Shown here: positions 12,403 to 32,640 of the stretch, piece by piece
How the letters are laid out: the number at the start of each line of letters is the position of its first letter
How positions within the stretch are numbered: the first letter of the stretch is position 1
Source of the DNA: Candidatus Melainabacteria bacterium
GTDB lineage: Bacteria > Cyanobacteriota > Vampirovibrionia > Obscuribacterales > Obscuribacteraceae
DNA: 46,205 nucleotides
Direction: 5' to 3'
Assembly (NCBI GenBank): GCA_003963305.1
Contig: RXJR01000020.1
Span: 1 to 46,205 of the forward strand
Notes under the pieces: model-generated
The model's input: only the letters and a program-made list of their open reading frames with translations
Told to the model about the DNA's origin: nothing
The model's database searches: none
Program-made: the position numbers and the translations under genes

Positions 12403-12449
12403 CGACCTTCCTGAATAAGCACGATAAAGATGCTTATTCAGCAAAGTCG
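12403..12449 (-). promoter_or_regulatory. E element 1
   Basis: On the minus strand: CGACTTT-G-CTGAATAAGCA, a 9-nt loop, TGCTTATTCAG-G-AAGGTCG. The inner stem is a perfect 11 bp with A-U replacing G-C pairs of other copies (compensatory). The third-arm hairpin appears as CGAGA/TCTCG (12391-12404). Leads the 147-aa gene. Confidence 0.8.
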
Positions 12450-12461
12450 CCTTTGAACTGA

Positions 12462-12489
12462 GATGCTGGCGAGTTAACTCGCCAGCATC
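12462..12489 (-). terminator. Gene-end hairpin after the 124-aa gene
   Basis: Perfect 28-bp palindrome (GATGCTGGCGAGTT / AACTCGCCAGCATC). The T-run (TTTTT) lies on the plus-strand side; in the minus direction there is no U-tract. It is therefore either a plus-strand terminator or a processing hairpin. Confidence 0.65.
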
Positions 12490-12588
12490 TTTTTCATTCG
12501 CACACCAAGATTGTCTATTACGAAAAGCTCAAGAAAGAATGAGCCTTTCGTATGCTCTTAAAATTTCAAGAGAAAAAACTTACTAGGA

Positions 12589-12963
12589 TCAATTGTTGCA
12601 GTAGCTCTGCCCGCAGGAGAGATAGTTTTCGACCTGTTCAGTCATATAACCGGCTTCGCGAAGTGTTGGCAGAGCAGCATGAATATTGCCATCGTCCAAC
12701 AGATGATCCGCCTGTTTGATTGTTACTTGAACAAAGTGCACCATTTTGTGAGCCTCAATGTTCTCTGGATACTTGCTTGTTTTGTCGAGTGCCTGAACGT
12801 AACGACTGAAGACCAGCTGCCGATAGCTCCAGACGATATCGTTGTTATCGGCTTCCAACTTGGTCTGATTGGACGCAAGATCGACAATGGCGATGATGCA
12901 ACCAAGAACGGCGGCAACAAGCACCGCGAGCGTAACAGCAAGAGCGTTCTGAGACTGTGTCAT
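12589..12963 (-). CDS. Membrane-anchored helical protein, paralogue of 22601-22984 (124 aa)
   Basis: One N-terminal hydrophobic helix (about residues 6-28), then a helical extracytoplasmic or cytoplasmic domain and a conserved cysteine tail. By-eye alignment to 22601-22984 shows YRQxxxxR, KxPENxEAxxxV, Qxx(I/A)xxxDxL, ENxLxCGxSxC. The two tail cysteines are conserved in both, suggesting a disulfide or metal site. The start at 12963 has GAGGA upstream; a longer open frame is present but lacks signals. Function unknown. Confidence 0.75.
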   Translation of the reverse strand: MTQSQNALAVTLAVLVAAVLGCIIAIVDLASNQTKLEADNNDIVWSYRQLVFSRYVQALDKTSKYPENIEAHKMVHFVQVTIKQADHLLDDGNIHAALPTLREAGYMTEQVENYLSCGQSYCNN

Positions 12964-13077
12964 TTTTGCAGTCCTCGGTTGTGCGATGACGGCTAGCCAT
13001 CGACTTTGGTTGAAGATGTGTTGAGCGCAACAGGTAACTTGATGACGAGATTTGAACACATAGATGGAACATTCAAA

Positions 13078-13113
13078 AGCAGCAGGAGAACACAAAGATG
13101 CTCTCCTGCTGCT
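13078..13113 (-). terminator. Intrinsic terminator after the 97-aa membrane gene
   Basis: AGCAGCAGGAGA / TCTCCTGCTGCT (12 bp, 12-nt loop) followed on the minus strand by CTTTTGAATG, a short U-tract. It lies 31 bp past the stop of 13145-13438. Confidence 0.65.
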
Positions 13114-13144
13114 ATAGGCGTTAGCACACGAAGGAAGCCAATCG

Positions 13145-13438
13145 CTAATCTCGATCGTAAAATGCAAAGGCGCCACCAAGTAAGTAGCCACCAATGATAA
13201 GACTGATGAACGAGACCGGTTCCGCTAGATCCGGCCAGAACTTTTGAAATATCAGATTCTCCACGACCCCAAGCACCAGCACGACAACGGCCGTGATTCC
13301 CAGCCTCAATCCCCCAGACAGTCCAATGTGACTCGTCTTGTCGATGAAGTCCTGGTTCATTCCCATGCAGGCGTAGTCGAACGCTCCCACGACAAAACCA
13401 ATTCCAAACAGGGCGCAGGTGGCAAAGTCGAACTCCAT
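13145..13438 (-). CDS. Small three-span membrane protein (97 aa)
   Basis: Hydrophobic helices at about residues 6-25, 45-64 and 74-92, with short polar loops. The start has GGAG about 8 nt upstream. Its leader contains an apparently internally deleted E element (13472-13499). No family recognised. Confidence 0.75.
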   Translation of the reverse strand: MEFDFATCALFGIGFVVGAFDYACMGMNQDFIDKTSHIGLSGGLRLGITAVVVLVLGVVENLIFQKFWPDLAEPVSFISLIIGGYLLGGAFAFYDRD

Positions 13439-13471
13439 GGCTTTACTCCGAGTTTTATCAGGGAACTAGTT

Positions 13472-13499
13472 GCTGACTTTCAATTCAGAAAAGCGCAGC
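13472..13499 (-). promoter_or_regulatory. Vestigial/minimal E-like element
   Basis: Only the outer E arms remain: on the plus strand GACTTTC is directly followed by AATTCAG and AAAAGC, as if the inner stem-loop had been deleted. It sits at the same position relative to the next gene as true E elements and is preceded by a gene-end hairpin (13519-13536). Confidence 0.4.
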
Positions 13500-13518
13500 T
13501 AGGTCCCTCGAGAAGAAT

Positions 13519-13536
13519 TCAGTCAGAGCAGACTGA
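13519..13536 (-). terminator. Gene-end hairpin after the 67-aa gene
   Basis: TCAGTC / GACTGA, 6 bp with a 6-nt loop, extendable with mismatches to about 24 nt; 13 bp past the stop of 13549-13752. No U-tract. Confidence 0.45.
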
Positions 13537-13548
13537 GTTTGTCGACCA

Positions 13549-13752
13549 TCAGTCGCCAAAATTCACGCCCGCGGAGATCTTGTCCACCACCTGCTGCTGC
13601 AGGTCGAGGATGGGTCCGAACGCGAACGCCGTGAGCGCACTCAGGCACACCGCAGGGACGACCAAACCGAGGCGCGACAGTTCGTCAGACTGATCGAGCC
13701 AGGTCTGGCGCGCCGCTTGAGTCAGCGCAAAAGTGACGATGAGAGCGTGCAT
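13549..13752 (-). CDS. Small membrane protein (67 aa)
   Basis: Two hydrophobic segments (about residues 2-12 and 28-50) linked by a Gln/Trp/Asp-containing loop. The start at 13752 has GGAGAAGG just upstream; an in-frame GTG at 13764 overlaps that ribosome binding site and is unlikely. Family unknown. Confidence 0.7.
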   Translation of the reverse strand: MHALIVTFALTQAARQTWLDQSDELSRLGLVVPAVCLSALTAFAFGPILDLQQQVVDKISAGVNFGD

Positions 13753-13938
13753 AACCTTCTCCACACTTGTGTGATGGTTCCAGGATGGAACCCGGTTTCA
13801 GCTTCAGAGCAGCAGCAAGAATGCTTCTGCCCCGCAAGTTTATGTGGTGGCAACTAAGTCGCCACCACCTTACTCCACAACGACGCTACCCGACCACCGG
13901 AGATTTTTCGGAATTACGCCGAACTGGTTGTGTTTTGT

Positions 13939-14571
13939 TTAGACGTTGACGAAAACGCCCCAGTTGAGAGGACGCCCCTGGAAGCCGCCGCACGGCACGA
14001 ACTCGAACTCATAACCATTGCCGCGCAGCCAATCGAGAACCCAGTGCGCATGCTCCGGCATTTTTTCTTCGAGCGGCGCCTGACCGAGGATCCTCTGCTT
14101 GAGCGTCCGGGGGCAGAGTTTCCATTCGACAACGAGAGCGTTCACTTGGGTCTCCCTGTTGCCGCTTTCGAAGCGCGGGGAATTGGCGCTTCTTGCATGT
14201 GCGGCAGCCAACAACGCCTTGAAGTGGGAGACGGCGGCCGACAAAAACTGGTCTTTCGGCGCCTGCACTTCAACGCGCGTCCGGTCTCCGAGATGCACGA
14301 TGCGATACTTCAAGTCCGGCTGTTCGTTCAGCCACTCGATGGCCAGCCGATACTGCAGGGGCATTTCTTCGAAGAGCGGCACGGCGCGCAAAAGTCGATC
14401 GGCCCACGAGAGAGTCTCGCACGCCGACCAGTGGCAAACCAGCACGGTTTCCCACGGTTTGATCAGACGCACGCACCACTCACGGGTGTTTTCCACCTTC
14501 TCCGCCAGGTTGGCGAGGTAAGCGGCGCGGTCGAAGGTCAGATCCGCGTTCTCGGAAGAGATGTAGATCAT
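13939..14571 (-). CDS. Hypothetical protein with internal duplication (210 aa)
   Basis: Soluble, no membrane segment. Two copies of one unit are visible: VPLFEEMPLQYRLAIEWL... about residues 64-85, and APLEEKMPEHAHWVLDWL about 165-183, each followed by a strand and a Gly. The repeated unit is EEKMP-x5-LxWL. The ATG at 14571 has GGAG 7 nt upstream; a GTG at 14574 is the alternative. No family recognised; the duplicated alpha/beta unit could be a binding domain. Confidence 0.75.
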   Translation of the reverse strand: MIYISSENADLTFDRAAYLANLAEKVENTREWCVRLIKPWETVLVCHWSACETLSWADRLLRAVPLFEEMPLQYRLAIEWLNEQPDLKYRIVHLGDRTRVEVQAPKDQFLSAAVSHFKALLAAAHARSANSPRFESGNRETQVNALVVEWKLCPRTLKQRILGQAPLEEKMPEHAHWVLDWLRGNGYEFEFVPCGGFQGRPLNWGVFVNV

Positions 14572-14607
14572 CACGATTCTCCAAAGTTCCTGTTACGAGA
14601 AAAAGCA

Positions 14608-14627
14608 AGTGGCAATTGCTCGCCACT
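14608..14627 (-). terminator. Intrinsic terminator between nuclease and duplicated-domain genes
   Basis: AGTGGC / GCCACT stem with an 8-nt loop followed on the minus strand by TTGCTTTTTCTCG. The U-rich tail makes this a plausible terminator for the nuclease transcript. Confidence 0.6.
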
Positions 14628-14692
14628 CACATTGTCTAGAACATGCCGAACGAACTACTGGGCAGATGCCGATCGTACATTCCGAACAGTTC

Positions 14693-15649
14693 TCACCTGG
14701 CTTCGAGTTGAGCATTCAGCCACTCTTGCCCAACTTTGCAATCACTGCGATAGTCACAGCCCTCACAGTGAGAGCCTGGCTTCACAAGGAAATGCTTGCG
14801 TTCCCACGATGCATCGATGTCTCTGATATAACCTTCGATGCCCGCAAGACGCTCCTTTTGCACAGGATTCAGTTCCGGCTTGATTGTGTCCAGCACCCAT
14901 TCCGGGCGACTCAGCTGGCTGCCGTCCGGAGCGCGTAGGTAGACCAGCCTGGTCTTCACGTTTCCGTTGAAGGTCAGACCCCAGAACTTTTCCCAGGCCC
15001 TGGAGCGTCGAACCACCAGCCCCATCATGAACGGCACCAGATGGGCGAACCGATGACGATGACGACCGGTTTTGGTGTCGTCTACCCCGACGAACGTGCT
15101 GCGCCCGTCATTCACGACCCTCAGCTGGTCCGGTTTAACCACCCAGAATGTCCTGGTCCGTTCGTCAAAGTGAAAGAACGCCTTCGGCTCCTTGATAATG
15201 GGGTGAGTGATTTGAGGAGCTTCTCGCCTCGCAGCGCGAGTCGCCACCTTGACCATCGATCTGGCCGTTATCACGGCCTTCTCAATCTCCTCTTTGGGAA
15301 TACGCGGCGCAACTACTTTAGCAGACGCCTCCGAGACCGCCATCGAAACGGCAGTCGCTACGCTCTCACGTTTCAGCGGAGCTGTGGCTATCTGCTTGTG
15401 CACCACGGCTCCAACCACCCGGGTCACTGGAGCAGCGGTCAAAGGCAAATCGCCTTCTGCGTGGCGTAGATACTCGGCAGGACAGTCGATATACTCAAGC
15501 AGCTGATACGGAGCAATGCTCCTGTTCCAGGGAGCGGTGATAGAGGCTATGTAGTTTCCGCCTCCTTTCACCACAATTTCCCTGTGCCGACGCCTTGCCT
15601 GACCTCGGTCCTGGCGCGACGGCTTGCGAGTGGGGTCGATATGATCCAC
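14693..15649 (-). CDS. PD-(D/E)XK nuclease, Cas4/RecB-like, with predicted Fe-S cluster (318 aa)
   Basis: Visible features are those of RecB/Cas4-type exonucleases: GxxxH motif (VGAVVHKQIA, His84), Glu154 region, catalytic D-x-K in GVDDTKTGRH (Asp190/191, Lys193), and four cysteines arranged as in Cas4 and AddB: Cys56 (CPAEYLRH) and Cys295-x2-Cys298-x5-Cys304. These would bind a [4Fe-4S] cluster. The enzyme probably trims DNA ends. The GTG start at 15649 has GGAGAG about 6 nt upstream; the frame stays open another 116 codons, but that part is an antisense shadow of the next gene. No cas1/cas2, CRISPR array or helicase is adjacent; the DEAH helicase lies in the other arm. Confidence 0.85.
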   Translation of the reverse strand: MDHIDPTRKPSRQDRGQARRRHREIVVKGGGNYIASITAPWNRSIAPYQLLEYIDCPAEYLRHAEGDLPLTAAPVTRVVGAVVHKQIATAPLKRESVATAVSMAVSEASAKVVAPRIPKEEIEKAVITARSMVKVATRAARREAPQITHPIIKEPKAFFHFDERTRTFWVVKPDQLRVVNDGRSTFVGVDDTKTGRHRHRFAHLVPFMMGLVVRRSRAWEKFWGLTFNGNVKTRLVYLRAPDGSQLSRPEWVLDTIKPELNPVQKERLAGIEGYIRDIDASWERKHFLVKPGSHCEGCDYRSDCKVGQEWLNAQLEAR

Positions 15650-15687
15650 GTGAACTCTCCATGTTTGGAGGTTGAAGATAAAGCCGC

Positions 15688-16017
15688 TTATGCGTTGCGG
15701 TACCACCATCCGCTCAGGAACGTGAAGAGCGCTGCCAGCGGCATGATGAGCAGCGACGGTAGTCCCATCACAGCACTCAGCGACGCGCCGATCAACGCAC
15801 AAATCGCACCCACACAAGCGCCAGCGAAGAAGCCAAAGCACAAATCCGCGCAGATCCACTGCGCGAAAGTGAAAGCTCCGACCGCTTCGATCGCCATGGC
15901 AGTGACAGTCAAGCCGGAATGATTGGACTTGAGCCCCACGACTTCCGTGATAAGAAGTATGAGTCCAAGCCCGATTATACAAGCCGACTGCAGCCAATTT
16001 TCCTGACGTGTCTTCAT
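15688..16017 (-). CDS. Hydrophobic membrane protein (109 aa)
   Basis: About four hydrophobic segments rich in Ala, Gly, Leu and Cys (roughly residues 8-26, 35-58, 60-80, 84-105). AAAGGA lies about 10 nt before the ATG at 16017. No family recognised. Confidence 0.75.
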   Translation of the reverse strand: MKTRQENWLQSACIIGLGLILLITEVVGLKSNHSGLTVTAMAIEAVGAFTFAQWICADLCFGFFAGACVGAICALIGASLSAVMGLPSLLIMPLAALFTFLSGWWYRNA

Positions 16018-16077
16018 GACGTCATTCCTTTCGTTTCTCTGCAAAATGGCTAGGCGCCATTGCGTTTCTACTGCTGA

Positions 16078-16497
16078 TTACCTCACACGCATTTCGTACT
16101 CCGGCGGTCCCCAGGAACGCATCTCCTTGGAGACCTTAACCACCCGACCGGCCGACTGGAAGAATTTCTCCACGTAGCTGGCAGCGATTGCCTCCACGGC
16201 AACGTGGATAAAGTCATCACTGTCAGTCCGGACTTCGGATGGTGCCAAGATCATCGCGAACACATATCCGTCATCAAGCCTCGTCTTAAGCCTGTGACTG
16301 GTCTCCTCGATGATGCGTTCAACTCGCGGCATCGCCGCCGAAAGCTGAGCGTCGCGCGCAGCTTTCACCGCCGCGGCTTGAGCCTGCTCCATTTTTCTAC
16401 GATCCTCGCGTTCAGCATCGAAGTTCTTCGCGAGGTTCTGTTGCTCGAGTATCTGCGCAAGCGCACGCGCAGCCGATTCATGATTGCTGCTAAGCAT
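16078..16497 (-). CDS. Hypothetical protein, paralogue of 9777-10193 (about 139 aa)
   Basis: Coiled-coil-like N-terminal half rich in Ala/Gln/Glu and an alpha/beta C-terminal half. Shares the QLSA, VxRII, SEV and AxxASYxxxFFxxAGRVV signature with 9777-10193. The two ATGs at 16503 and 16497 are both possible; GGAG lies 3 and 9 nt upstream respectively, so 16497 is preferred. Function unknown. Confidence 0.75.
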   Translation of the reverse strand: MLSSNHESAARALAQILEQQNLAKNFDAEREDRRKMEQAQAAAVKAARDAQLSAAMPRVERIIEETSHRLKTRLDDGYVFAMILAPSEVRTDSDDFIHVAVEAIAASYVEKFFQSAGRVVKVSKEMRSWGPPEYEMRVR

Positions 16498-16538
16498 TTC
16501 CATGTTCTCCAGTTAACTGCATGACGATTGGTTTATAG

Positions 16539-16844
16539 TCAGACGTTACCGACCAACTGGCTGAGCTCAGCCAGCACACAATCCGGATTGTGAGTCATCG
16601 CCGGATCATCGATGGCACGGCGCTCGTACGCGCTGCCGCGCACATTCATGCGCGACTTGCAGCACGGGCACTCGTAGTAATCGGGCTCGCCGAATCCAGT
16701 CAGATGCGGTTCCAAACCCAATGCATGCGAAGCAAACGCCGTGCGCAAGCGATCGACGAGTTGTCGAGTTTTCGGCTCGACAACCATGATTACAGCCACG
16801 TCAACACCAGCAGCCTCGGCGACTTTCTTCGGATCTTCGAACAT
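16539..16844 (-). CDS. Small zinc-ribbon-like protein (101 aa)
   Basis: An N-terminal helical half is followed by a probable zinc site: YECPCCKSRM (Cys-x2-Cys) and MTHNPDCVLA (His-x3-Cys) about 30 residues later. Similar C2HC arrangements occur in many small phage and plasmid proteins. AAGGA lies about 7 nt upstream of the ATG. Metal binding is inferred; the partner (DNA, RNA or protein) is unknown. Confidence 0.75.
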   Translation of the reverse strand: MFEDPKKVAEAAGVDVAVIMVVEPKTRQLVDRLRTAFASHALGLEPHLTGFGEPDYYECPCCKSRMNVRGSAYERRAIDDPAMTHNPDCVLAELSQLVGNV

Positions 16845-16894
16845 TTTGATTCCTTAGTGTTCTGACCTGTGACACCTGTGACAATTCGATCGAT

Positions 16895-17389
16895 TCAACG
16901 CTGCCGGCAAGACGGCACGGTAACGCGAACCCTCTTGCCGCCGCGCGGACGCGAACCCTGCCGATCGACGTTGAGGTCGAACAGCAGAGTGTCAAACGTC
17001 AGACAGACAACCCAGACAGAGAGCGCCAGAATCAGCGACGACTCGAACATGGGCAACCATCCGTCGAATTCCAGCACAGCGGATTTGCGCCCGATATGCT
17101 GCACCTGAGCCAGAGCCAGTGCGCTGATGAAGAACGGTGCCAAAACGCTCTTCGCCTCCATTTTGAAGTCGAAGAAAAATTTGCCGTTGCTGATCTGACT
17201 CACCACCCAGAGCACAAGCGCGACCTCAACGAGATCGCCGAGGGTGGCAATGAACAGCATAAAGCCGAATCTTGCCGCAGAGAGGATGTCCCCGGAAAAG
17301 ACAACACCGGGGACCATGGGCAGCACGAAGTAGCTGACCAGAGTCAACGTTGCGATTCTTCGCAGAGAACTATTAATGAGTTCCGACAT
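16895..17389 (-). CDS. Multi-span membrane protein (164 aa), E-led
   Basis: Four probable membrane helices (about residues 12-33, 40-62, 80-98, 112-132) and a strongly basic C-terminal tail (RQGSRPRGGKRVRVTVPSCRQR), which may face the cytoplasm and bind nucleic acid or lipid. The start at 17389 has AGGAG about 8 nt upstream. Preceded by E element 2. No family recognised. Confidence 0.75.
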   Translation of the reverse strand: MSELINSSLRRIATLTLVSYFVLPMVPGVVFSGDILSAARFGFMLFIATLGDLVEVALVLWVVSQISNGKFFFDFKMEAKSVLAPFFISALALAQVQHIGRKSAVLEFDGWLPMFESSLILALSVWVVCLTFDTLLFDLNVDRQGSRPRGGKRVRVTVPSCRQR

Positions 17390-17490
17390 TTTAGTCTCCT
17401 GATTTAGAGTGTTTTGGAAGATTCCATCGAGCCGCAAGAAGCATCACCTCACCTCTCGATGAGGTCTTTGAAATGCTCCAGCAGGTTCTC

Positions 17491-17536
17491 CGACCTTCCT
17501 GAATACGCACAAGACATGCGCATTCAGCAAAGTTGG
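17491..17536 (-). promoter_or_regulatory. E element 2
   Basis: Minus strand: CTGAATGCGCA, a 7-nt loop, TGCGTATTCAG, complete 11-bp inner stem with one G-U pair; outer arms CAACTTT / AAGGTCG pair less well. The third arm is weak (AGGT/ACCT). Leads the 164-aa membrane protein. Confidence 0.8.
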
Positions 17537-17577
17537 CGAAAGCCAGACTCGAATCGGAACCAGAGTCAGATGAGAGT

Positions 17578-17601
17578 GAAGTCGGCTGTGAAGCCGACTT
17601 C
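17578..17601 (-). terminator. Gene-end hairpin after the 149-aa gene
   Basis: GAAGTCGGCT / AGCCGACTTC, about 10 bp with a 4-nt loop, 25 bp past the stop. No U-tract on the minus strand. Confidence 0.6.
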
Positions 17602-17625
17602 TTTGTTGGGTCAGGTCAGTGCGGC

Positions 17626-18075
17626 TCACCATGCAGCAGACATGGTCACACCGGTGGTGAAACTAATCCCATCGTCTGAGTAGACGACGGTTTCGAAACA
17701 CACATTTCCGGCTCGGTCCGTTCCCTCCATCTGGAGATCAATCGGGCCAAGCTCTCCGAGTTCTCGCTTCAGGAAGCCAAACAGAGGCTCTGAAATCGAG
17801 CTTCGCTCGGCGTAAGCGCAAACTTTCTCGAATTTCAGCGAAGAGCCGCACGCGGCGTTATCGCTGTCATCCGTGTGAACCCAGATGCCATCAATGATGA
17901 CACTGAGTTTGCCACGCGGCGACCTGACAGGGCTGCGGGCAATCACGATCTGAATCGATTTTCCTCTCGCCCCGGTGAACCGAGCGAAGACCTCGGAACA
18001 ACCAAGAATCGACTCGTCGATCAGATGTCTGGCCGCTGCTTCGAGCCACAACGACGCTTTTGTTCTTTCCGTCAT
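17626..18075 (-). CDS. Hypothetical soluble protein (149 aa)
   Basis: Mixed alpha/beta, no membrane segment; contains RSPVRSPRGKLSVIIDGIWV and a C-terminal strand-rich part (VCFETVVYSDDGISF). The ribosome binding site is excellent (GAGGAGG about 8 nt upstream). Family not recognised. Confidence 0.7.
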   Translation of the reverse strand: MTERTKASLWLEAAARHLIDESILGCSEVFARFTGARGKSIQIVIARSPVRSPRGKLSVIIDGIWVHTDDSDNAACGSSLKFEKVCAYAERSSISEPLFGFLKRELGELGPIDLQMEGTDRAGNVCFETVVYSDDGISFTTGVTMSAAW

Positions 18076-18129
18076 GACTGTTCACCTCCTCTCGAAAGTG
18101 CCCGCCCTGGAATTGAGGCGAAGCGAGGT

Positions 18130-18157
18130 CTGACAGCCAGCTGATGCCGGCTGTCAG
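18130..18157 (-). terminator. Gene-end hairpin after the large S1-domain gene
   Basis: Perfect 9-bp stem CTGACAGCC / GGCTGTCAG with a 10-nt loop, 39 bp past the stop of 18196-19875. No U-tract. Confidence 0.6.
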
Positions 18158-18195
18158 TTTCTTTGTAGTCGCGCTGTTAACTGAACATATCAGTT

Positions 18196-26638: not shown

Positions 26639-26667
26639 GATGAAAGAGAGCTCGACCCTCTTTCATC
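26639..26667 (-). terminator. Gene-end hairpin after the first octad-repeat gene
   Basis: Perfect 10-bp stem GATGAAAGAG / CTCTTTCATC, 9-nt loop, 18 bp past the stop of 26685-27146. No clear U-tract. Confidence 0.6.
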
Positions 26668-26684
26668 TTCTTGGTTGAGCTTCT

Positions 26685-27146
26685 CTAGTAATAGATAGCT
26701 CCACGCTCAACATAAAGCGTGTTGCCTATGCCGCCGTAGACGATGGAACCAGCGCGGCAGACGACGCTAAGTGAGCGTCCCGGGGAGCCTGACCCGAGGG
26801 TAACGAGGTGTGCGTCTTGCAAGTGCACGTTAGCCCGTGCTTTCACAAGCGCGGTGACACCGCAACCAAGGCGGAGCGTTGTGCGATCGCCGCCTTCAAC
26901 GTAGGCTCCATACTCCGCCACATTGACGACAGCTGTACCAGCAGCCAAGACTTCCGATCCCTCGTACGCATACACGATCGAACCGTCATAAGCATAGACC
27001 CTGGAACCTTTGTAGGCATAGACGATAGATCCGCTTCTGGCATAGACCACCGACCCGCTGTAAGCCCAAACCACATAGTCGATTCCGACATCCAGTTTGG
27101 TTCCCTGACGAGCATGCAGATAATTTTTCGATTGAACTTCGTTCAT
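26685..27146 (-). CDS. Octad-repeat beta-solenoid-like protein A (153 aa), E-led
   Basis: Residues about 25-70 consist of tandem 8-residue units with consensus (V/I)VYAYxGS; later units are looser, up to about residue 140. Eight-residue units pairing into 16-residue coils are known from ice-nucleation-type and other beta-solenoids. The solvent-facing row of Tyr is notable. No signal peptide or membrane segment. Paralogue of 27371-27784. Preceded by E element 4. Possible roles: surface or ice binding, scaffold or filament. Confidence 0.78.
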   Translation of the reverse strand: MNEVQSKNYLHARQGTKLDVGIDYVVWAYSGSVVYARSGSIVYAYKGSRVYAYDGSIVYAYEGSEVLAAGTAVVNVAEYGAYVEGGDRTTLRLGCGVTALVKARANVHLQDAHLVTLGSGSPGRSLSVVCRAGSIVYGGIGNTLYVERGAIYY

Positions 27147-27268
27147 GTCGAATCCGTTTCTTGGGGTGTAGGGTCGTTTCGAAGAGCCGACCCGAGCTGT
27201 TTCTTGTCACACTGAATTCGGATTTACGGCATTTATGATCTCCCTCTACGTCTGGCGTGGATAGTCGC

Positions 27269-27312
27269 CGACCATCCTGAATGCGCACACTTATGCGCAT
27301 TCAGCAAAGCCG
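27269..27312 (-). promoter_or_regulatory. E element 4
   Basis: Minus strand: CTGAATGCGCA, 6-nt loop, TGCGCATTCAG, perfect 11-bp inner stem. Arm 2 (GGATGGTC) and arm 3 (GACTATCC, 27259-27266) have changed together relative to GGAAAGTC/GACTTTCC in other copies. Confidence 0.85.
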
Positions 27313-27319
27313 GGAAACC

Positions 27320-27347
27320 GGTCATGCAAGCCTGAGCTTGCATGACC
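27320..27347 (-). terminator. Gene-end hairpin after the second octad-repeat gene
   Basis: Perfect 12-bp stem GGTCATGCAAGC / GCTTGCATGACC with a 4-nt loop, 23 bp past the stop of 27371-27784. No U-tract on the minus strand. Confidence 0.7.
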
Positions 27348-27370
27348 AGATTTTGTTCAGATTGTCAAAG

Positions 27371-27784
27371 CTAGGCGCGCGGAATGATTGTGCCACCACG
27401 ATTGGTGATGATCGAATCATTGGCTGCAAAGACCGTTGCGCCTTTCTCAGCCGTAACATGCGAACCAGCCTCAGCGAAGACTTTCGATTTGTCACCGGCA
27501 GTAACCGTCGACCCAAACTTCGCAAACACTACTGAACCGCTCTCCGCCCAAACCTTGGAACCGGCGTAGGCAATTACGTGAGCTCCGGCTTCGGCATGAA
27601 CCTGAGAGCCAGCCTCGGCGAAAACCTGAGAACCACGGTGGGCAACAACGACCGACCCGTGTTTCGCATGAACCGTCGAATTGGCTTCGGCGACCCACTC
27701 TTGATTCGACAAAGCATCGACTGGCAGACCGGCTTTGGCGATATGCGGTTGCGACCGACGCGGACGAGATGTGCTTCTCGACAT
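27371..27784 (-). CDS. Octad-repeat beta-solenoid-like protein B (137 aa), E-led
   Basis: After a basic N-terminus (MSRSTSRPRRSQPH), residues about 35-130 are about 12 tandem octads with consensus xVxAxxGS. The regularity strongly predicts a right- or left-handed beta-solenoid with Val/Ala inside and Gly-Ser turns. ATG 27784 has AAGGAAG about 7 nt upstream. Preceded by E element 5. With the neighbouring paralogue it makes a pair that could co-assemble. Confidence 0.8.
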   Translation of the reverse strand: MSRSTSRPRRSQPHIAKAGLPVDALSNQEWVAEANSTVHAKHGSVVVAHRGSQVFAEAGSQVHAEAGAHVIAYAGSKVWAESGSVVFAKFGSTVTAGDKSKVFAEAGSHVTAEKGATVFAANDSIITNRGGTIIPRA

Positions 27785-27851
27785 TTGCATCTTCCTTATC
27801 AGAGTGACTAACACCTTCTAGTGTCAGTCGTTTACAGAGCGGAAAGTCACT

Positions 27852-27900
27852 CGACTTTCCTGAATGTACACCAGGTTTTGATGCACATTAAGCAAAATCG
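27852..27900 (-). promoter_or_regulatory. E element 5
   Basis: Minus strand: CTTAATGTGCA, 11-nt loop, TGTACATTCAG (one mismatch, one wobble); outer arms CGATTTT/AAAGTCG. The third arm is a perfect 8-bp GGAAAGTC / GACTTTCC (27841-27860). Leads the octad-repeat protein B gene. Confidence 0.8.
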
Positions 27901-27911
27901 CACTTATGACT

Positions 27912-27933
27912 GGGGCCGGCGATTGCCGACCCC
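27912..27933 (-). terminator. Gene-end hairpin after the 80-aa gene
   Basis: GGGG(C/T)CGGC / GCCG(A/G)CCCC, 9 bp with one wobble and a 4-nt loop, 13 bp past the stop of 27947-28189. No U-tract on the minus strand. Confidence 0.6.
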
Positions 27934-27946
27934 AAAAATTGTGTGT

Positions 27947-28189
27947 TCACAGAAGCGGAATCTTGGCGCCGCCGATGGTGAAGACGAATACGACGTCGAA
28001 CACCGCAAGCACAGCGAACCAGATCGAAGCCTGCCTCGCCTTGCGCATCCAGCCTTTGACCCGCGCGATGCGCGGATGCTTGAAGTCCCATTGCGCCTCC
28101 TCGTAAATGGCTCGCGCACGAGGGGTGGTTAAGAAGAACCCCGGATCGAGGTCGGCGAAGCGAATTGCTTTCTTGTCCTTCAAGCTCAT
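27947..28189 (-). CDS. Small C-terminally anchored protein (80 aa)
   Basis: Charged N-terminal ~50 residues (MSLKDKKAIRFADLDPGFF, PRIARVKGWMRKARQ) and one C-terminal hydrophobic helix (IWFAVLAVFDVVFVFTIG). Probably an inner-membrane protein with a basic cytoplasmic face. Good AGGAG upstream. Family unknown. Confidence 0.7.
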   Translation of the reverse strand: MSLKDKKAIRFADLDPGFFLTTPRARAIYEEAQWDFKHPRIARVKGWMRKARQASIWFAVLAVFDVVFVFTIGGAKIPLL

Positions 28190-28222
28190 GATCGTCTCCT
28201 GATTTAACGTTGGTTGAAAAAT

Positions 28223-28254
28223 GATGTCGGGGCCGATGCACCGGTCCCGACATC
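28223..28254 (-). terminator. Intrinsic terminator after the 89-aa basic gene
   Basis: GATGTCGGG / CCCGACATC, 9 bp extended by an inner GGCCG/CCGGTCC region, followed on the minus strand by ATTTTTC. One of the few left-arm hairpins with a U-tract. Confidence 0.7.
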
Positions 28255-28276
28255 GTGTTGAAGACTGGCAGTCGAA

Positions 28277-28546
28277 CTACTTGCTTCGATCTTCTCGCAT
28301 CATGCTGCTTTTGCCCTTCCTGTTCTTACGAGGCGAGAGCTGATCGAAGTCGTGTCCGGCGCCAACCAGCGCCATCAGCTGCTTCGTATTCTGACGAGCT
28401 TGCCGATGTTGATCGCGCTTCGCGCCGCCGTGAGCGCCGCGAGCCTGTTTGACGTTGGGGCCCTTACCGGCGACAGATGCCAACCGGGCCATATCTTGCA
28501 CATGAGCACCACTGATAGTAGTGGGCGCTTTAGCTTTCTTCGACAT
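28277..28546 (-). CDS. Small basic protein (89 aa)
   Basis: Lys/Arg/Gln/Gly/His-rich throughout (GGAKRDQHRQARQNTKQLM, SPRKNRKGKSSMMREDRSK), as in disordered nucleic-acid-binding or ribosome-associated proteins. The start at 28546 has GGAG about 7 nt upstream. No domain recognised. Confidence 0.68.
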   Translation of the reverse strand: MSKKAKAPTTISGAHVQDMARLASVAGKGPNVKQARGAHGGAKRDQHRQARQNTKQLMALVGAGHDFDQLSPRKNRKGKSSMMREDRSK

Positions 28547-28573
28547 TTGATGCTCCAATTTTCCATACACCGG

Positions 28574-28819
28574 TTACGATTTCGAACGCGCCAGAAACCA
28601 GCGCATAATCCGAATGACCACGACAGAGAACATAATCGCAACGCCCATGTAGACATAGTCGTGCGTGAACGCCGGCATGGCGAAACCCATCACCACAACC
28701 AGAGCGATGTACCCGAACGAGCAATCAGCCATCTCGTAAAGGGCGATTACGACGATAACCAAGCCAATCGCCATCTGCCACAATTCGGGCATGGCGGCGC
28801 AAGCATGCAAACTAGTCAT
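28574..28819 (-). CDS. Small membrane protein (81 aa), E-led
   Basis: Two to three hydrophobic helices (about residues 15-47 and 54-72) with a basic C-terminal RIMRWFLARSKS. The start at 28819 has GAGGA upstream. Preceded by E element 6. Family unknown. Confidence 0.72.
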   Translation of the reverse strand: MTSLHACAAMPELWQMAIGLVIVVIALYEMADCSFGYIALVVVMGFAMPAFTHDYVYMGVAIMFSVVVIRIMRWFLARSKS

Positions 28820-28879
28820 ATCATCCTCTTTTGTTGCGAAGAACGAACACATCACAGCGATGGGTCCGCGAAAGTCAAA

Positions 28880-28929
28880 CGACTTTCTTGAATGCGCACC
28901 ACCAGGATGATGCACATTCAGCAAAGTCG
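28880..28929 (-). promoter_or_regulatory. E element 6
   Basis: Minus strand: CGACTTT-G-CTGAATGTGCA, 12-nt loop, TGCGCATTCAA-G-AAAGTCG. The outer 7-bp stem is perfect; the inner stem has one U-G pair. The third arm is GAAAGTC/GACTTTC (28870-28887). Confidence 0.82.
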
Positions 28930-28933
28930 ATGT

Positions 28934-28963
28934 GGGAGAAGCGAACTTTCGCTCCCTTCTCCC
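28934..28963 (-). terminator. Gene-end hairpin after the second 81-aa membrane gene
   Basis: GGGAGAAG / CTTCTCCC arms with an inner CGAA/TTCG stem, 14 bp past the stop of 28977-29219. No U-tract. Confidence 0.6.
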
Positions 28964-28976
28964 AGATCTCAATCAA

Positions 28977-29219
28977 TCAAGCAGGGCACTGCACAAATGT
29001 TTGCCTGCTGCCCAGCAAGACACGCACCAGCAGAAGCGAATTGAAAGCGATAAAACCAACAGAGGGCATCGCCATTGCCATTCCGCCCGACTGGAACGCC
29101 ATAACCGCCAGCACCGAGTGATAGACACAGCCGAAGCCGGCAGCCCATTTGCTGAAGAACAGAAACATGAGCGCCTTTACTGCCACGTTCGATTCGTAAG
29201 TCGTGATGAGGTCTCGCAT
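28977..29219 (-). CDS. Small membrane protein (80 aa)
   Basis: About two hydrophobic segments (residues 14-44 and 48-68) containing Gly/Met/Ala-rich stretches. Two adjacent ATGs (29222 and 29219) follow GAGGAG; the second has the better 6-nt spacing. No E element precedes it; the leader holds two large hairpins instead. Family unknown. Confidence 0.7.
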   Translation of the reverse strand: MRDLITTYESNVAVKALMFLFFSKWAAGFGCVYHSVLAVMAFQSGGMAMAMPSVGFIAFNSLLLVRVLLGSRQTFVQCPA

Positions 29220-29290
29220 CATATGCTCCTCATAAATTCCACGAAGAAGCTTTCGCTTTTCGCAGGAGTCGAAAAACTCCCCAGCCTAGA

Positions 29291-29327
29291 CTTATTTGAT
29301 TGAGCCTTTTTGACTCGATCAAATAAG
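29291..29327 (-). promoter_or_regulatory. Long leader hairpin upstream of the 80-aa membrane gene
   Basis: CTTATTTGA / TCAAATAAG (9 bp) extended by TGAG/CTC-type pairing. An 8-codon mini-frame (ATG at 29347 on the minus strand) ends inside the hairpin's 5' arm, which may be chance or a leader peptide. The rest of 29223-29487 shows only this hairpin and 29448-29475. Confidence 0.4.
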
Positions 29328-29447
29328 CCTACGCGCGACTTCCATAAGTCACGCTGGTCCCTCCTGGACCAACCAGCACCTCCTTTCGACAGAGAGGCCC
29401 CACCGCCAGGGTCATATGACAGGGCGGATCGGGGAAATGGTTAGGAA

Positions 29448-29475
29448 CTCCGGGACTGATTGCGCAGTCCCGGAG
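29448..29475 (-). terminator. Gene-end hairpin after the 44-aa gene
   Basis: Perfect 10-bp stem CTCCGGGACT / AGTCCCGGAG with an 8-nt loop, 13 bp past the stop. No U-tract. Confidence 0.65.
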
Positions 29476-29487
29476 AAGTTGATCAGG

Positions 29488-29622
29488 TTAGTTGCATTGA
29501 CGCGTCCGCCTCAGCAAGCGCAATTCGATGGAACGGCGCTTGCGAGTTTTCGAGCGAGTCGGATCGAAACGACGATTCTTATCCGCCCGATCTGCTTTGT
29601 TTTTCGGAACTGAATTGCTCAT
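29488..29622 (-). CDS. Very small basic protein (44 aa), E-led
   Basis: Highly basic (MSNSVPKNKADRADKNRRF, RSKTRKRRS, LRLLRRTRQCN), no hydrophobic helix; the composition resembles small ribosomal or nucleic-acid-binding peptides. AGGAG lies about 8 nt before the ATG. It has its own gene-end hairpin and E element 7, which strongly supports it as a gene despite its size. Confidence 0.65.
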   Translation of the reverse strand: MSNSVPKNKADRADKNRRFDPTRSKTRKRRSIELRLLRRTRQCN

Positions 29623-29650
29623 AGCATTTCTCCTTAACTGCAGCATTCGC

Positions 29651-29682
29651 TGCTGAATAAGCGCACATACGCTCATTCAGCA
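29651..29682 (-). promoter_or_regulatory. E element 7 (diverged outer arms)
   Basis: Minus strand: TGCTGAATGAGCG, 6-nt loop, CGCTTATTCAGCA, a 13-bp inner stem with one wobble and a compensatory GCG/CGC change. The GACTTT outer arms are lost. The third-arm hairpin persists with unrelated sequence (GCAGC/GCTGC, 29640-29653). Confidence 0.75.
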
Positions 29683-29701
29683 ATGAAAGCGATAACTGGG
29701 A

Positions 29702-29732
29702 GATACGGGGCTGGCCAAGCCAGCCCCGTATC
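29702..29732 (-). terminator. Gene-end hairpin after the 91-aa gene
   Basis: Perfect 14-bp stem GATACGGGGCTGGC / GCCAGCCCCGTATC with a 3-nt loop, starting 5 bp past the stop. No U-tract on the minus strand. Confidence 0.7.
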
Positions 29733-29737
29733 ATGAT

Positions 29738-30013
29738 TTACGCGCGCGCGCGGTGGACGCGGCGACTGGAGGCGCTGCGCCTCGTGGTGCGGATGTAAAG
29801 CTGCCTGTACCTCTCGGTCGACAACATTTCCATCGCACCTCCCTGCAGGCACGCGACCTCAAGCAGTCCCAGCCGAGCTTCGTGGTCCATACCGGCCAGC
29901 GAAACAGGGCTGACAACGATGTGCCGCCTGTCGCCATTCGGATTCGGCACTGCCGGACTCAGGATGCCGTACTTTTCGAGCATGTTTCCATCAAATTCGC
30001 GAATGACTGACAT
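29738..30013 (-). CDS. Small soluble hypothetical protein (91 aa), E-led
   Basis: Contains RRHIVVSPVSLAGMDHEARLGLLEVACL and an Arg-rich C-terminus (RRSASSRRVHRARA). No membrane segment. TGGAG upstream of the ATG at 30013. Preceded by E element 8. Family unknown. Confidence 0.7.
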   Translation of the reverse strand: MSVIREFDGNMLEKYGILSPAVPNPNGDRRHIVVSPVSLAGMDHEARLGLLEVACLQGGAMEMLSTERYRQLYIRTTRRSASSRRVHRARA

Positions 30014-30114
30014 GATTCACTCCATCGATTTGAGCGAAGTTCGCTCGTTGTGGCGAGGCACCAGTGCCATCGCCAGTAATACCGGTTGCCACTGCAACCA
30101 GCAAGAAAGTCACC

Positions 30115-30157
30115 CGACTTTCTTGAATAAGCACAACATGCCCATTCAGCAAAGCCG
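30115..30157 (-). promoter_or_regulatory. E element 8
   Basis: Minus strand: CGGCTTT-G-CTGAATGGGCA, 5-nt loop, TGCTTATTCAA-G-AAAGTCG. The third arm is a perfect 10-bp CAAGAAAGTC / GACTTTCTTG (30102-30125). Together with its upstream gene-end hairpin it is a near copy of E element 9. Confidence 0.85.
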
Positions 30158-30169
30158 AATTGTGTGATT

Positions 30170-30200
30170 GATGGCGAGCCCTGATTTTGAGCCCGCCATC
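30170..30200 (-). terminator. Gene-end hairpin shared with 31262-31291
   Basis: GATGGCGGGC / GCCCGCCATC-type stem (GATGGCG...GCCATC with an internal mismatch). Almost the same sequence occurs at 31262-31291, in the same position relative to an E element. No U-tract. Confidence 0.6.
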
Positions 30201-30210
30201 AAAGTTTTCG

Positions 30211-30309
30211 CTAGGACTCGAAATCGAGTTCAGACACCGCAAGAAGAGCTCTGACCATCGCAATTTGGAAGTTCTCCGACACAAAGTCCGAGAACTTCCT
30301 TCGCAACAT
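30211..30309 (-). CDS. Possible very small gene (32 aa)
   Basis: A 32-codon frame (MLRRKFSDFVSENFQIAMV...) just downstream of the 274-aa gene. Its stop lies 11 bp from the gene-end hairpin at 30170-30200, exactly the stop-to-hairpin distance at the duplicated copy (31302/31291). A 10-bp GGAAGTTCTC/GAGAACTTCC hairpin lies inside the frame, and the ribosome binding site is poor, so translation may be coupled to the upstream gene. Confidence 0.35.
   Translation of the reverse strand: MLRRKFSDFVSENFQIAMVRALLAVSELDFES
30267..30299 (-). promoter_or_regulatory. Hairpin after the 274-aa gene
   Basis: Perfect 10-bp stem GGAAGTTCTC / GAGAACTTCC, then a single-base mismatch, a GAC/GTC inner stem and a 5-nt loop. 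It lies 24 bp past the stop of 30323-31147. No U-tract. Confidence 0.55.
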
Positions 30310-30322
30310 CGACGCCGATTGC

Positions 30323-31147
30323 TCAGATCTTCGCCAGGCTATCCTCGTAGTCCTTGATGAGGTCAGCCAGGTCGTTGCGCAGCGACAGGCGGGTCGACTC
30401 GAAGTCGTCCAGCTCGCCGACAAGCGTCACAACAGTCTCGATCTGCTCACGCATGACGACTCTAGCCAGGTCATGAAGGGCGTTTCCGTCTTCCGCTTGG
30501 GTGTCGTTGCGCCACCAGGCGTCGATGCAGAGAGCCAGCTCACTTTCGTGCTCGTTGAATGGACGGTCATCAGCGCTGAGATTCTTCCCTTCGGCGCGAA
30601 GCTCGATCACTCGACGAGCAGCATTCAGCGCTTGCTCGACAGAGCCGGTGATGATGGCAGCCAGCGATGCACGAGCGTTCTTCTCCTTTCCGCTGGTGTC
30701 CGCGATCATCTCCAGCACCTGTTCCAGCCCGCCGGCAACTGCCTTGATGTGATGGTCCGTGCAGGCAGCGCGGCTGCGCATCAAGTCGCGCCAGTCGCCC
30801 AGCTTCACAGTCTTCTGCTTCAGAGCGGCAGAATGAGGCTCGTCCAGAATCTGCCTGGCGCGAATCTCCACATCGACTTCGGCGCTATGGTTGGTCACGA
30901 CGGACGATGCCGGCTGCGACGCCTCAGAAACACGGTCGACGCAGCGGATAACCCAGATCGTCTTGGCGCGATTTTCGCTGAGGACAATATACGTCCACGT
31001 TTCTCCATCCTCGGGCTGCCCACCAAACTTCTCCGAGGGGAAGGCAATGCGCGACGGAAGTCCGCGGTACTCGATGAAAGTCTTCACGCCACCGCCCTTC
31101 GCAGCGGAGAACTTCGCCTGGGGAAGGTTCGGGCTCGAGTTTGACAT
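30323..31147 (-). CDS. Hypothetical helical protein (274 aa), E-led
   Basis: A strand-containing N-terminal ~90 residues (FIEYRGLPSRIAFPSEKFGG, TWTYIVLSENRAKTIWVIRCV) followed by a long, Glu/Asp/Arg-rich helical C-terminal part (about 120-274). Start 31147 has GGAGAG upstream; the open frame continues 30 codons further without a ribosome binding site and would translate E element 9. No family recognised; charge and helicity suggest a protein-interaction or coiled-coil role. Confidence 0.75.
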   Translation of the reverse strand: MSNSSPNLPQAKFSAAKGGGVKTFIEYRGLPSRIAFPSEKFGGQPEDGETWTYIVLSENRAKTIWVIRCVDRVSEASQPASSVVTNHSAEVDVEIRARQILDEPHSAALKQKTVKLGDWRDLMRSRAACTDHHIKAVAGGLEQVLEMIADTSGKEKNARASLAAIITGSVEQALNAARRVIELRAEGKNLSADDRPFNEHESELALCIDAWWRNDTQAEDGNALHDLARVVMREQIETVVTLVGELDDFESTRLSLRNDLADLIKDYEDSLAKI

Positions 31148-31206
31148 GGAACTCTCCTTTGTTATCGATTTAGACAAGTACTTAAATGTGCTTGCCAGAA
31201 AGTCGT

Positions 31207-31249
31207 CGACTTTCTTGAATGAACACATCATGCTCATTCAGCAAAGCCG
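31207..31249 (-). promoter_or_regulatory. E element 9
   Basis: Minus strand: CGGCTTT-G-CTGAATGAGCA, 5-nt loop, TGTTCATTCAA-G-AAAGTCG. The third arm AGAAAGTCG / CGACTTTCT (9 bp) overlaps the 3' arm (31197-31215). Leads the 274-aa gene. Confidence 0.85.
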
Positions 31250-31261
31250 AATTGTGTGATT

Positions 31262-31291
31262 GATAGCGAGCCCTGAGTTGAGCCCGCCATC
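31262..31291 (-). terminator. Gene-end hairpin after the 98-aa membrane gene
   Basis: GATGGCGGGC / GAGCCCGCCATC-type stem with mismatches, 11 bp past the stop of 31302-31598; near-identical to 30170-30200. No U-tract. Confidence 0.6.
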
Positions 31292-31301
31292 AATTTGTCA
31301 G

Positions 31302-31598
31302 TTAACGCTGCTCGAATTTTTTCACGAACAGCTCCCACCAGGGATGACCGCCCCACCAGAGCGCACCGCCGACCACGCCAATGTATGCCACCATCGCCAC
31401 CGGCAAAAGAACATCGACGGCGAAGTAGTCAAACCATCCAATCGAGCTGGGACTCGCGATCTGCCGAACCGCGAGGCGATCCATCGCCGCGATGATGTCC
31501 GTAACTTTGCCCTTGATTCCCAGAGCGAGAATAAGGGAGACAACGGCAACAAAAAGACCCTTGTCCAGGCGCTCGGTTTCAGATTTAGAGAGATTCAT
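31302..31598 (-). CDS. Two-span membrane protein (98 aa)
   Basis: Hydrophobic helices at about residues 15-30 and 62-82, a Trp-rich segment near the end (GGALWWGGHPWWELF) and a basic C-terminus. Start 31598 has AAGGA about 9 nt upstream. It follows the 108-aa gene by 23 bp, so these last genes of the cluster form a small operon. Family unknown. Confidence 0.75.
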   Translation of the reverse strand: MNLSKSETERLDKGLFVAVVSLILALGIKGKVTDIIAAMDRLAVRQIASPSSIGWFDYFAVDVLLPVAMVAYIGVVGGALWWGGHPWWELFVKKFEQR

Positions 31599-31621
31599 TG
31601 CACAAATTCCTTCTGTTCGAG

Positions 31622-31948
31622 TTAGCATGCCCTGACGAATTTGCCGTTTCTGCCGTACATGGCGTGATAACGTTCCATGAGACAATCGAAATCGTCACCG
31701 AACATAAACGCAGCCCCTTCGTAGTCCATCTTCTTCATCAGCGACTGCCCCTCGGCGTCCATGGCGGCAAGAGCCAGATTCCCGAGCCGAATAAAAATCA
31801 CCATGCCGCTGATGAGGTGTTCGGCAGTGTCGGGAAGTCGTTGCTCCTTGCGGTATTGGTCGGTGCGCTGCCACTCTGTAAGGGGAGACAGGGCTTCCGT
31901 ATAAGCCACATACGCAGCCTGCACCGCAGGTGTTGTACCTGGGTTCAT
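31622..31948 (-). CDS. Hypothetical soluble protein (108 aa)
   Basis: Helical, with a central hydrophobic patch (HLISGMVIFIRLGNLALAAM) and a C-terminal acidic/Tyr-rich part (FGDDFDCLMERYHAMYG). The start overlaps the preceding gene's stop by 4 nt (ATGA), so translation is coupled. Family unknown. Confidence 0.72.
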   Translation of the reverse strand: MNPGTTPAVQAAYVAYTEALSPLTEWQRTDQYRKEQRLPDTAEHLISGMVIFIRLGNLALAAMDAEGQSLMKKMDYEGAAFMFGDDFDCLMERYHAMYGRNGKFVRAC

Positions 31949-32241
31949 GACCTCGCTCCTTTCCTTTTCGAAATATTGACCTTCCTGTCGAATCTCGGAT
32001 TCGATCGATTTCGGGGGCCGACGGAGGAAAATTCGACGAGATAACCCCGATTTTCCAGACGCCGTTTGCCTTGCTCGATAGTCTCATCCGAGAAGTCGCT
32101 TGAGCAAAATTGCACAATGCAGGCGGAATCCTCACCCAACACATTCAGGCAATATTCACTGAATGGATCGGCTGTGGTTTGTCCGCCTACATCTTCACTC
32201 GTCCTTGCAGGTGCTCCGTATGACGGATTACTTGCTGACAT
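31945..32241 (-). CDS. Hypothetical soluble protein (98 aa)
   Basis: A Ser/Gly-rich N-terminus, then alpha/beta with DETIEQGKRRLENRGYLVEF and a strongly basic C-terminus (RNRSNPRFDRKVNISKRKGARS). AGGAG about 8 nt upstream of the start. Translationally coupled to the next gene. Family unknown. Confidence 0.72.
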   Translation of the reverse strand: MSASNPSYGAPARTSEDVGGQTTADPFSEYCLNVLGEDSACIVQFCSSDFSDETIEQGKRRLENRGYLVEFSSVGPRNRSNPRFDRKVNISKRKGARS

Positions 32242-32280
32242 AGCAAACTCCTTGCGAATTTGCAGGAGATGTGATCGAAA

Positions 32281-32297
32281 CGCGAGTCAGACTCACG
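32281..32297 (-). terminator. Hairpin between the 77-aa and 98-aa genes
   Basis: GAGT-GACTC palindromic core flanked by CG pairs, within the 72-bp gap; weak, with only a short T-run (GTTTC) after it. Confidence 0.35.
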
Positions 32298-32313
32298 TTC
32301 CCAGATTGATGTG

Positions 32314-32547
32314 TCAGGCTTTGTTCTTGACGTAGCCGAGCAAACGCTGGAGCGTGTTGTGGAACGCTGATGATTCGTCGACGAACTTCAAGTTCGACCG
32401 AATGATCCTGCGCACATGAGTCTTCTCCTTTGCAGAAAGCTCCTGCTTCAACACTCGGCGGCGTTCCAGTTCGGCTCTCATATTGGCGATGCCCTCGACA
32501 TCGACTTTGGACTTGGCCAGCTTCAAAGTCAGCAGATCGAAGTTCAT
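32314..32547 (-). CDS. Small helical basic protein (77 aa), E-led, first gene of the left arm
   Basis: Entirely helical and basic (MRAELERRRVLKQELSAKEKTHVRRIIRSNLKF), no membrane segment. AAAGGG about 9 nt before the ATG. It is promoter-proximal and preceded by E element 10, so it is a candidate for a regulator or RNA-binding factor of this arm. No family recognised. Confidence 0.72.
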   Translation of the reverse strand: MNFDLLTLKLAKSKVDVEGIANMRAELERRRVLKQELSAKEKTHVRRIIRSNLKFVDESSAFHNTLQRLLGYVKNKA

Positions 32548-32598
32548 TGTTTTGCCCTTTCAGTTTCGCGATATTGGTCGCACCAGGAAAGTCTGAAT

Positions 32599-32640
32599 GA
32601 CTTTCCTGAATGAGCACGAGCATGCCCATTCAGCAAAGTC
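32599..32640 (-). promoter_or_regulatory. E element 10 (promoter-proximal)
   Basis: Minus strand: GACTTT-G-CTGAATGGGCA, 6-nt loop, TGCTCATTCAG-G-AAAGTC. The outer 6-bp stem and 1x1 G-G mismatch are perfect in form. The third arm CAGGAAAGTC / GACTTTCCTG is a perfect 10 bp (32584-32608). It leads the first gene of the left arm and is the best model copy. Confidence 0.85.

Follow-up and report, generated by a model that had tools for sequence, protein, structure and literature searches.

A repeated intercistronic RNA hairpin with a competing third arm in an orphan-gene cluster of Candidatus Melainabacteria

The window analysed here, a stretch of 46,205 nucleotides (nt) from a Candidatus Melainabacteria bacterium (assembly GCA_003963305.1, 7.48 Mb), comprises the first 46 kb of the 236.6 kb contig RXJR01000020.1 (C20) and carries ten copies of a short hairpin element, named E, all on the minus strand, located between genes and co-oriented with the next gene. 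From the analysis, E emerges as a new RNA element, intercistronic and lineage-restricted. As a family it is likewise new, though of a general kind already known (the intercistronic structured elements), and its competing arm is unusual. Regarding its function, E is tentatively read, at a probability of about 0.4, as an mRNA-processing site of the ribonuclease III (RNase III) type, whose cut product would refold into a 5' cap hairpin. A first-pass annotation made from the letters alone had recognised no published family in these hairpins, in agreement with Rfam 15, which gave no match in the window; a relaxed search of positions 27000-33000 returned nothing at the E copies, and no description of E was found in the open-licence literature.

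Recognition and folding of E

The ten positions and the minus-strand orientation reported by the first-pass annotation were all recovered by a covariance model built from the ten window copies (R1), which gives them 50-65 bits; among independent sites of the window, the next in rank reaches 13 bits, and the remaining matches are the same palindromes on the other strand. The minus-strand form that had been described for every copy, CTGAATNNGCA-N-TGCNNATTCAG, is exact in four of the ten and absent from 100 dinucleotide shuffles; one to three bases deviate in each of the other copies. The outer arms of the GACTTT/AAAGTC type and the one-base internal loop, a 1x1 G.G, were found in eight to nine window copies as described, and the loop length is indeed variable. 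In the wider set of copies, the outermost C-G of CTGAAT/ATTCAG is often swapped for C x A, so that the internal loop of many of them is 2x2 and the one-base form does not hold generally.

Each copy lies outside genes and precedes a start codon on the same strand by 18-119 nt (10/10), as had been noted, yet only 22% of the span 12400-32643 is non-coding by heuristic gene calls. These calls were made with a home-made codon-usage gene finder, and the gene borders are therefore approximate.

For covariation, 41 copies were aligned without regard to structure. In this alignment, 91% of the cells pair across the stem, and two-sided changes are present in 13 of the 19 pairs. The cells changed on both sides amount to 42, compared to 14.4+/-2.9 in shuffles, a test inflated by the kinship among copies, and to at most 16 in slid controls, which retain that kinship. 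The compensatory changes seen in the window, and the selection on a folded RNA deduced from them, thus gained rather than lost strength as copies were added. As judged from the sequence, the arms and core (A-core-B) form a hairpin of about 19 pairs having a conserved small internal loop.

The strand on which this folding takes place can also be seen from the pairs themselves, as 126 G.U pairs occur on the gene strand versus 45 on the opposite one, and the gene strand folds more stably in 39 of 43 copies (mean 7.3 kcal/mol; Wilcoxon p 1.4e-7). The strand preference of the model scores is by itself circular, R1 having been trained on gene-strand copies, but the energy comparison is not. This preference argues for an RNA and against the symmetric cruciform, which the first-pass annotation had kept as an alternative. 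The exceptions include the copies heading a rhomboid gene in two genomes of the same family (G062 and G027), where the gene strand is the weaker. At these loci, L069 (G062) and L034 (G027) 1501-1554, the better-scoring strand of an E-like hairpin before the rhomboid protease gene is antisense to the gene, and the gene strand bears a different hairpin, similar to the B:C hairpin described below.

A third arm and mutually exclusive helices

Two features had been overlooked in the first-pass annotation: an additional arm downstream, and a GC-rich hairpin that immediately precedes most copies. In most copies, the 3' outer arm B (GAAAGTC) is closely followed by GACTTTC (arm C), able to pair with B instead of the 5' arm A (GACTTTG), the helices A:B and B:C being mutually exclusive. 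The complementarity of B and C reaches at least 7/8 in 26 of 43 copies, compared to 3.4 copies (maximum 10) after shuffling of the downstream bases, and the B:C hairpin has a mean energy of -9.3 kcal/mol, compared to -7.7+/-0.29 when the downstream parts are swapped among copies. Moreover, in an alignment of 28 copies picked for clear B:C, 90% of the B:C cells are paired versus at most 54% in slid controls, and 10 cells are changed on both sides versus 3.9 in shuffles. Matching changes of B and C were found in E4 (GGATGGTC/GACTATCC), where A:B is broken, in E1 (GGAAGGTCGAGA/TCTCGGCATTCC), in E7 (GCAGC/GCTGC) and in a copy from G009, another genome of the family (GAAGGTC/GACCTTC). The layout of arm C given for E8 in Table 1 is shared by E5, E6, E9 and E10.

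The two helices are close in energy, with a median difference of 0.3 kcal/mol and 27 of 43 copies within 3 kcal/mol. The terminal G of A mismatches a G in B, while the terminal C of arm C pairs with that same G, which makes B:C one pair longer than A:B. A translational switch by pairing of C with the ribosome-binding site was rejected, as arm C is no more complementary to its own ribosome-binding region (-5.7 kcal/mol) than controls are (-5.8 and -6.2), and the predicted folds leave that region largely open.

Distribution and conservation

Matches scattered at random relative to genes, which the first-pass annotation had named as evidence against its reading, were not seen. In the whole 7.48 Mb genome, R1 and a broader model (R2) find 11 copies, ten of them within this 20 kb and the eleventh on another contig (C18), also preceding a gene. 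A genome of the same genus (G002) carries about 25 copies within 54-127 kb of one 250 kb contig, PLZS01000099.1, and six genomes of the same family (G009, G071, G068, G060, G062 and G027) have one or two copies each. Another genome of the genus (G001) has no E and also lacks the two cluster proteins and the one flanking protein tested. Among 244 genomes of the phylum, besides the own genome, only two gave single weaker matches, both outside the family. Weak model matches in coding regions of G065, G034 and G003 were considered noise, and pattern matches in Sphingobacterium, Pedobacter and a Bacteroidetes metagenome-assembled genome, being single sites outside the family, were taken as chance.

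The comparison of the window with G002, based on 30 reciprocal-best ortholog pairs, indicates that E stays with its genes. All six E-headed window genes having orthologs are also E-headed in G002, and 21 of the other 24 pairs are without E in both genomes (Fisher p 1.4e-4). The position of the element is thus conserved, while the proteins of the six pairs have diverged to 37-53% identity. The gene headed by E8 has E-headed counterparts both in G002 and in another genus (G068). In other genera, E is missing from the homologs of the E9 gene, and it is therefore regarded as lineage-restricted. In G002 (L053, 6628-10734), three close-set paralogs of the E9 gene were found, two sharing closely similar E copies and leaders, which suggests that local gene amplification carries E along.

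Proposed mode of action and alternatives

In eight of the ten window copies, the stretch between the upstream stop codon and E holds a strong GC-rich hairpin, the end of which is 1-11 nt away from E. This leaves little room for a promoter. The GC-rich hairpins upstream of E have no U tract. Sites resembling those of sigma-70 are less frequent than in shuffled sequence on either side of E (z -0.8 and -0.4), although the host consensus may differ. A separate promoter for each gene is for this reason unsupported, and the co-orientation of the genes together with the absence of recognisable promoters would be read most simply as a long polycistronic transcript.

Under the favoured reading, the cluster would be transcribed as such a long RNA, in which the A-core-B stem would be cut by a double-strand endonuclease. 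The upstream mRNA would then retain its GC-rich hairpin as a 3' cap, and the downstream mRNA, released from A, would refold, with B now pairing to C in a hairpin that caps its 5' end about 30-50 nt ahead of the ribosome-binding site, each E-headed gene giving a separately stable message. The G that ends A, forming a G.G mismatch with B, and the C that ends arm C, forming a G-C pair, would bias the refolding towards B:C. The host genome encodes an RNase III (220 bits), and the E stem, with 19 pairs and an internal loop between genes that we infer to be co-transcribed, can be compared to the roughly 20 bp of an RNase III processing site. In a processing model of this kind, every part of the arrangement has a use: the GC-rich hairpin would cap the upstream message at its 3' end, the stem of about 20 pairs would be where cutting takes place, and B:C would cap the downstream message at its 5' end.

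Several points weigh against this reading. The core (UUUGCUGAAU/AUUCA) is conserved beyond what RNase III normally needs, suggesting a sequence-specific binder; homologous genes in other genera have no E, so cutting would not be essential there; B:C is poor in two window copies, E2 and E3; and the near balance of A:B and B:C is partly due to the similarity of the A and C sequences. In addition, a promoter may yet lie inside the gap that holds E, as the consensus of this lineage may differ from that of sigma-70.

The conservation of the core above the RNase III expectation keeps a protein-controlled switch as a strong rival, which we consider possible. Here, the A:B/B:C balance would be shifted by a protein acting in trans, or else by a small RNA or a ligand, that binds the conserved core or the internal loop, setting translation or stability jointly for a regulon of E-headed genes. 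The two exclusive and nearly iso-energetic helices, a core sequence conserved beyond pairing needs, one element ahead of unrelated genes and the S1-domain RNA-binding proteins encoded within the cluster are consistent with such a switch. However, arm C shows no above-control pairing to the mostly open ribosome-binding region, no U-tract terminator follows E, and the terminal loop lacks conservation, in its length as well, which sets E apart from ligand-binding or ANTAR motifs.

An antiterminator or anti-polarity RNA acting in cis, like the put RNA of phage HK022, was also considered, by which the polymerase would get past the GC-rich hairpins in an operon of great length. The long co-directional array without recognisable promoters, the strong hairpin after most genes and the two adjacent hairpins (core and B:C) recall that system, but the lack of U tracts means that no antitermination would be needed, E is placed after and not before the nearest GC-rich hairpin, many genes of the array have no E, and the put RNAs are two at a promoter-proximal start and not one per gene (PMC9378689), making this explanation improbable.

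It is equally improbable that E is a miniature mobile or selfish repeat, of the Correia/NEMIS or REP type, surviving by chance between genes. Although E is dispersed and palindromic, and its copy number changes from 10 to about 25 between two genomes of the genus and to one, two or none elsewhere, it is nearly always on the gene strand, is kept at orthologous genes despite deep protein divergence and is restricted to one chromosomal stretch per genome. Arm C complements B even where it is unlike A, and so is not a target-site duplication, and no transposase was found near E. Lastly, a DNA element (a cruciform, an attC-type recombination site or an operator), brought to mind by the palindrome with its variable loop and by an array of small orphan genes reminiscent of integron cassettes, is highly implausible given the G.U strand asymmetry, the lack of a recombinase among the 30 proteins scanned with Pfam (some small open reading frames (ORFs) being outside the scan), a gene order largely conserved between genomes instead of shuffled cassettes, and a variable spacing that rules out a rigid dimeric operator.

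If the processing reading is true, E represents an undescribed RNA family in non-photosynthetic relatives of the cyanobacteria, with a cut-and-refold design, the direction of the switch being determined by a single mismatch. The shared element would define a regulon of orphan genes, offering a handle on the expression of very long co-directional gene clusters in a lineage with almost no molecular biology. More speculatively, E may stand for a class of bistable RNA acting as a per-gene checkpoint in a very long orphan-gene operon, where exclusive helices biased by the G.G mismatch would couple cutting or protein binding to a protective 5' hairpin, converting one transcript into individually tuned messages.

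Comparison with known RNA elements

The RNase III sites of phage T7 (R1.1 and others) each consist of a single imperfect stem, interrupted by an internal loop and lying between the cistrons of a polycistronic transcript, a layout similar to that of E, but they belong to a phage and are few, and we know of no alternative third arm described for them. R1.1 is a standard RNase III substrate (PMC6121014).

The Correia/NEMIS elements (CREE) of Neisseria are short inverted repeats, many of them beside genes, whose mRNA hairpins are bound by RNase III, with cleavage or protection as the outcome (PMC2649163). E is likewise a short intergenic inverted repeat, RNase III handling being known for Neisseria and proposed here. 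However, those elements are mobile units of about 70-160 bp spread genome-wide, with long terminal inverted repeats and, in some, IHF sites and promoters, whereas E has about 50 nt, one cluster, a locked orientation and a competing third arm. E was not assigned to these mobile elements, as arm C does not duplicate A where the copies are divergent, and the positions are conserved at orthologs. The ERIC (IRU) repeats of enterobacteria are intergenic and co-transcribed with their neighbours, with a proposed conformational effect on the stability of the flanking message (PMC2229807). They differ from E in being mobile, 127 bp long and unrelated in sequence, and in involving RNase E rather than RNase III. 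Both groups, through RNase III and RNase E, respectively, are precedents for processed transcribed intergenic hairpins.

The HK022 put RNA is, similar to E, a cis-acting hairpin RNA in long transcripts, having about 70 nt and two stem-loops downstream of early promoters, in two copies (PMC9378689). E is unrelated in sequence and was not placed among the put antiterminators, as it has one conserved hairpin plus an alternative arm and occurs many times within the array, ahead of a gene in each case. RNAs responding to ANTAR proteins also have two hairpins, the second being able to form an alternative structure, with hexanucleotide loops conserving A1 and G4 next to a terminator (PMC3369931). This motif was rejected for E, as loop length and sequence are not conserved in the 41 copies and no U-tract terminator was seen.

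The gene cluster and further features

The coordinates of the E copies and related features are given in Table 1.

Table 1. E copies and associated features of the window (R1 scores in bits)
Feature	Position	Strand	Gene headed	R1 score	Remarks
Cluster	11895..32547	-			about 33 co-oriented, mostly orphan genes; ten E-headed
E1 (hairpin)	12400..12451	-	11895-12338	62.3	arm C reaches about 12382; B:C -15.3 kcal/mol
E2	17488..17537	-	16895-17389	62.7	G002 ortholog E-headed; weak B:C
E3	23904..23962	-	23560-23874	51.7	G002 ortholog E-headed; weak B:C
E4	27266..27314	-	26685-27146 (bactofilin-like repeats)	64.3	A:B broken, B:C kept, GGATGGTC/GACTATCC
E5	27849..27902	-	27371-27784	56.4	
E6	28877..28931	-	28574-28819	60.5	
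E7	29641..29690	-	29488-29622 (small ORF)	50.1	outer arms divergent, CATTG/CGAATG; own B:C GCAGC/GCTGC
E8	30112..30159	-	29738-30013	64.9	
E9	31204..31251	-	30323-31147	61.8	
E10	32595..32643	-	32314-32547	63.5	first copy of the array
Arm C of E8 (TGACTTTC)	30094..30111	-			alternative partner of 3' outer arm B (GAAAGTCG)
GC-rich hairpin before E4 (GGTCATGCAAGCTCAGGCTTGCATGACC)	27315..27346	-			example; no U tract

The cluster is nearly without known families, Pfam identifying ClpP-like, PD-(D/E)XK, S1 and M50 proteins in the window and, in the sister cluster, a trypsin-like protein and a weak ParA-like match. The flanking genes look chromosomal in character, an S41 peptidase and a DEAH helicase being assigned by Pfam, and HypB and an aldolase-like protein by eye from the translations alone. 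The term "left arm" used in the first-pass annotation hints at a phage, but no phage gene was found and the contig is chromosomal. A phage origin was rejected, with no PHROG match for ten cluster proteins and no similar phage DNA; a pattern match in a viral contig (L050) lies in a coding sequence of an unrelated phage and was put down to chance. A role in anti-phage defence was also discarded, PADLOC giving only a single weak match (DruK, PD-(D/E)XK nuclease).

Regarding the GC-rich hairpins, a near-identical one (CTCCGGGACTGGC..GCCAGCCCCGGAG) occurs after many genes of the G002 cluster (C137; L052 and L053), just before E, and is a repeated element itself. At the head of the minus-strand array, adjoining E10, positions 32644-33995 form an AT-rich stretch of 1.35 kb without a predicted gene, mirrored in G002 by a gap of 1.7 kb, and this is a candidate promoter or leader region.

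A second family of leader hairpins (GGTGCCACCAGCACCGGT) is present on the minus strand at 19920-19938, 20442-20460 and 21261-21279, heading the S1-domain gene 18196-19875, its paralog 20517-21212 and a neighbour, mostly followed by a hairpin of the GAGCGC/GCGCTC type, and it is also found near the orthologous genes of G002. The adjacent minus-strand genes 26685-27146 and 27371-27784 are paralogs with repeated GSxVYAY/GSxVxAx units, a pattern resembling the beta-solenoid of bactofilins, without a Pfam assignment. Finally, positions 45862-46071 consist of seven or more head-to-tail units of 21 nt, which would be coiled-coil-like if read as protein.

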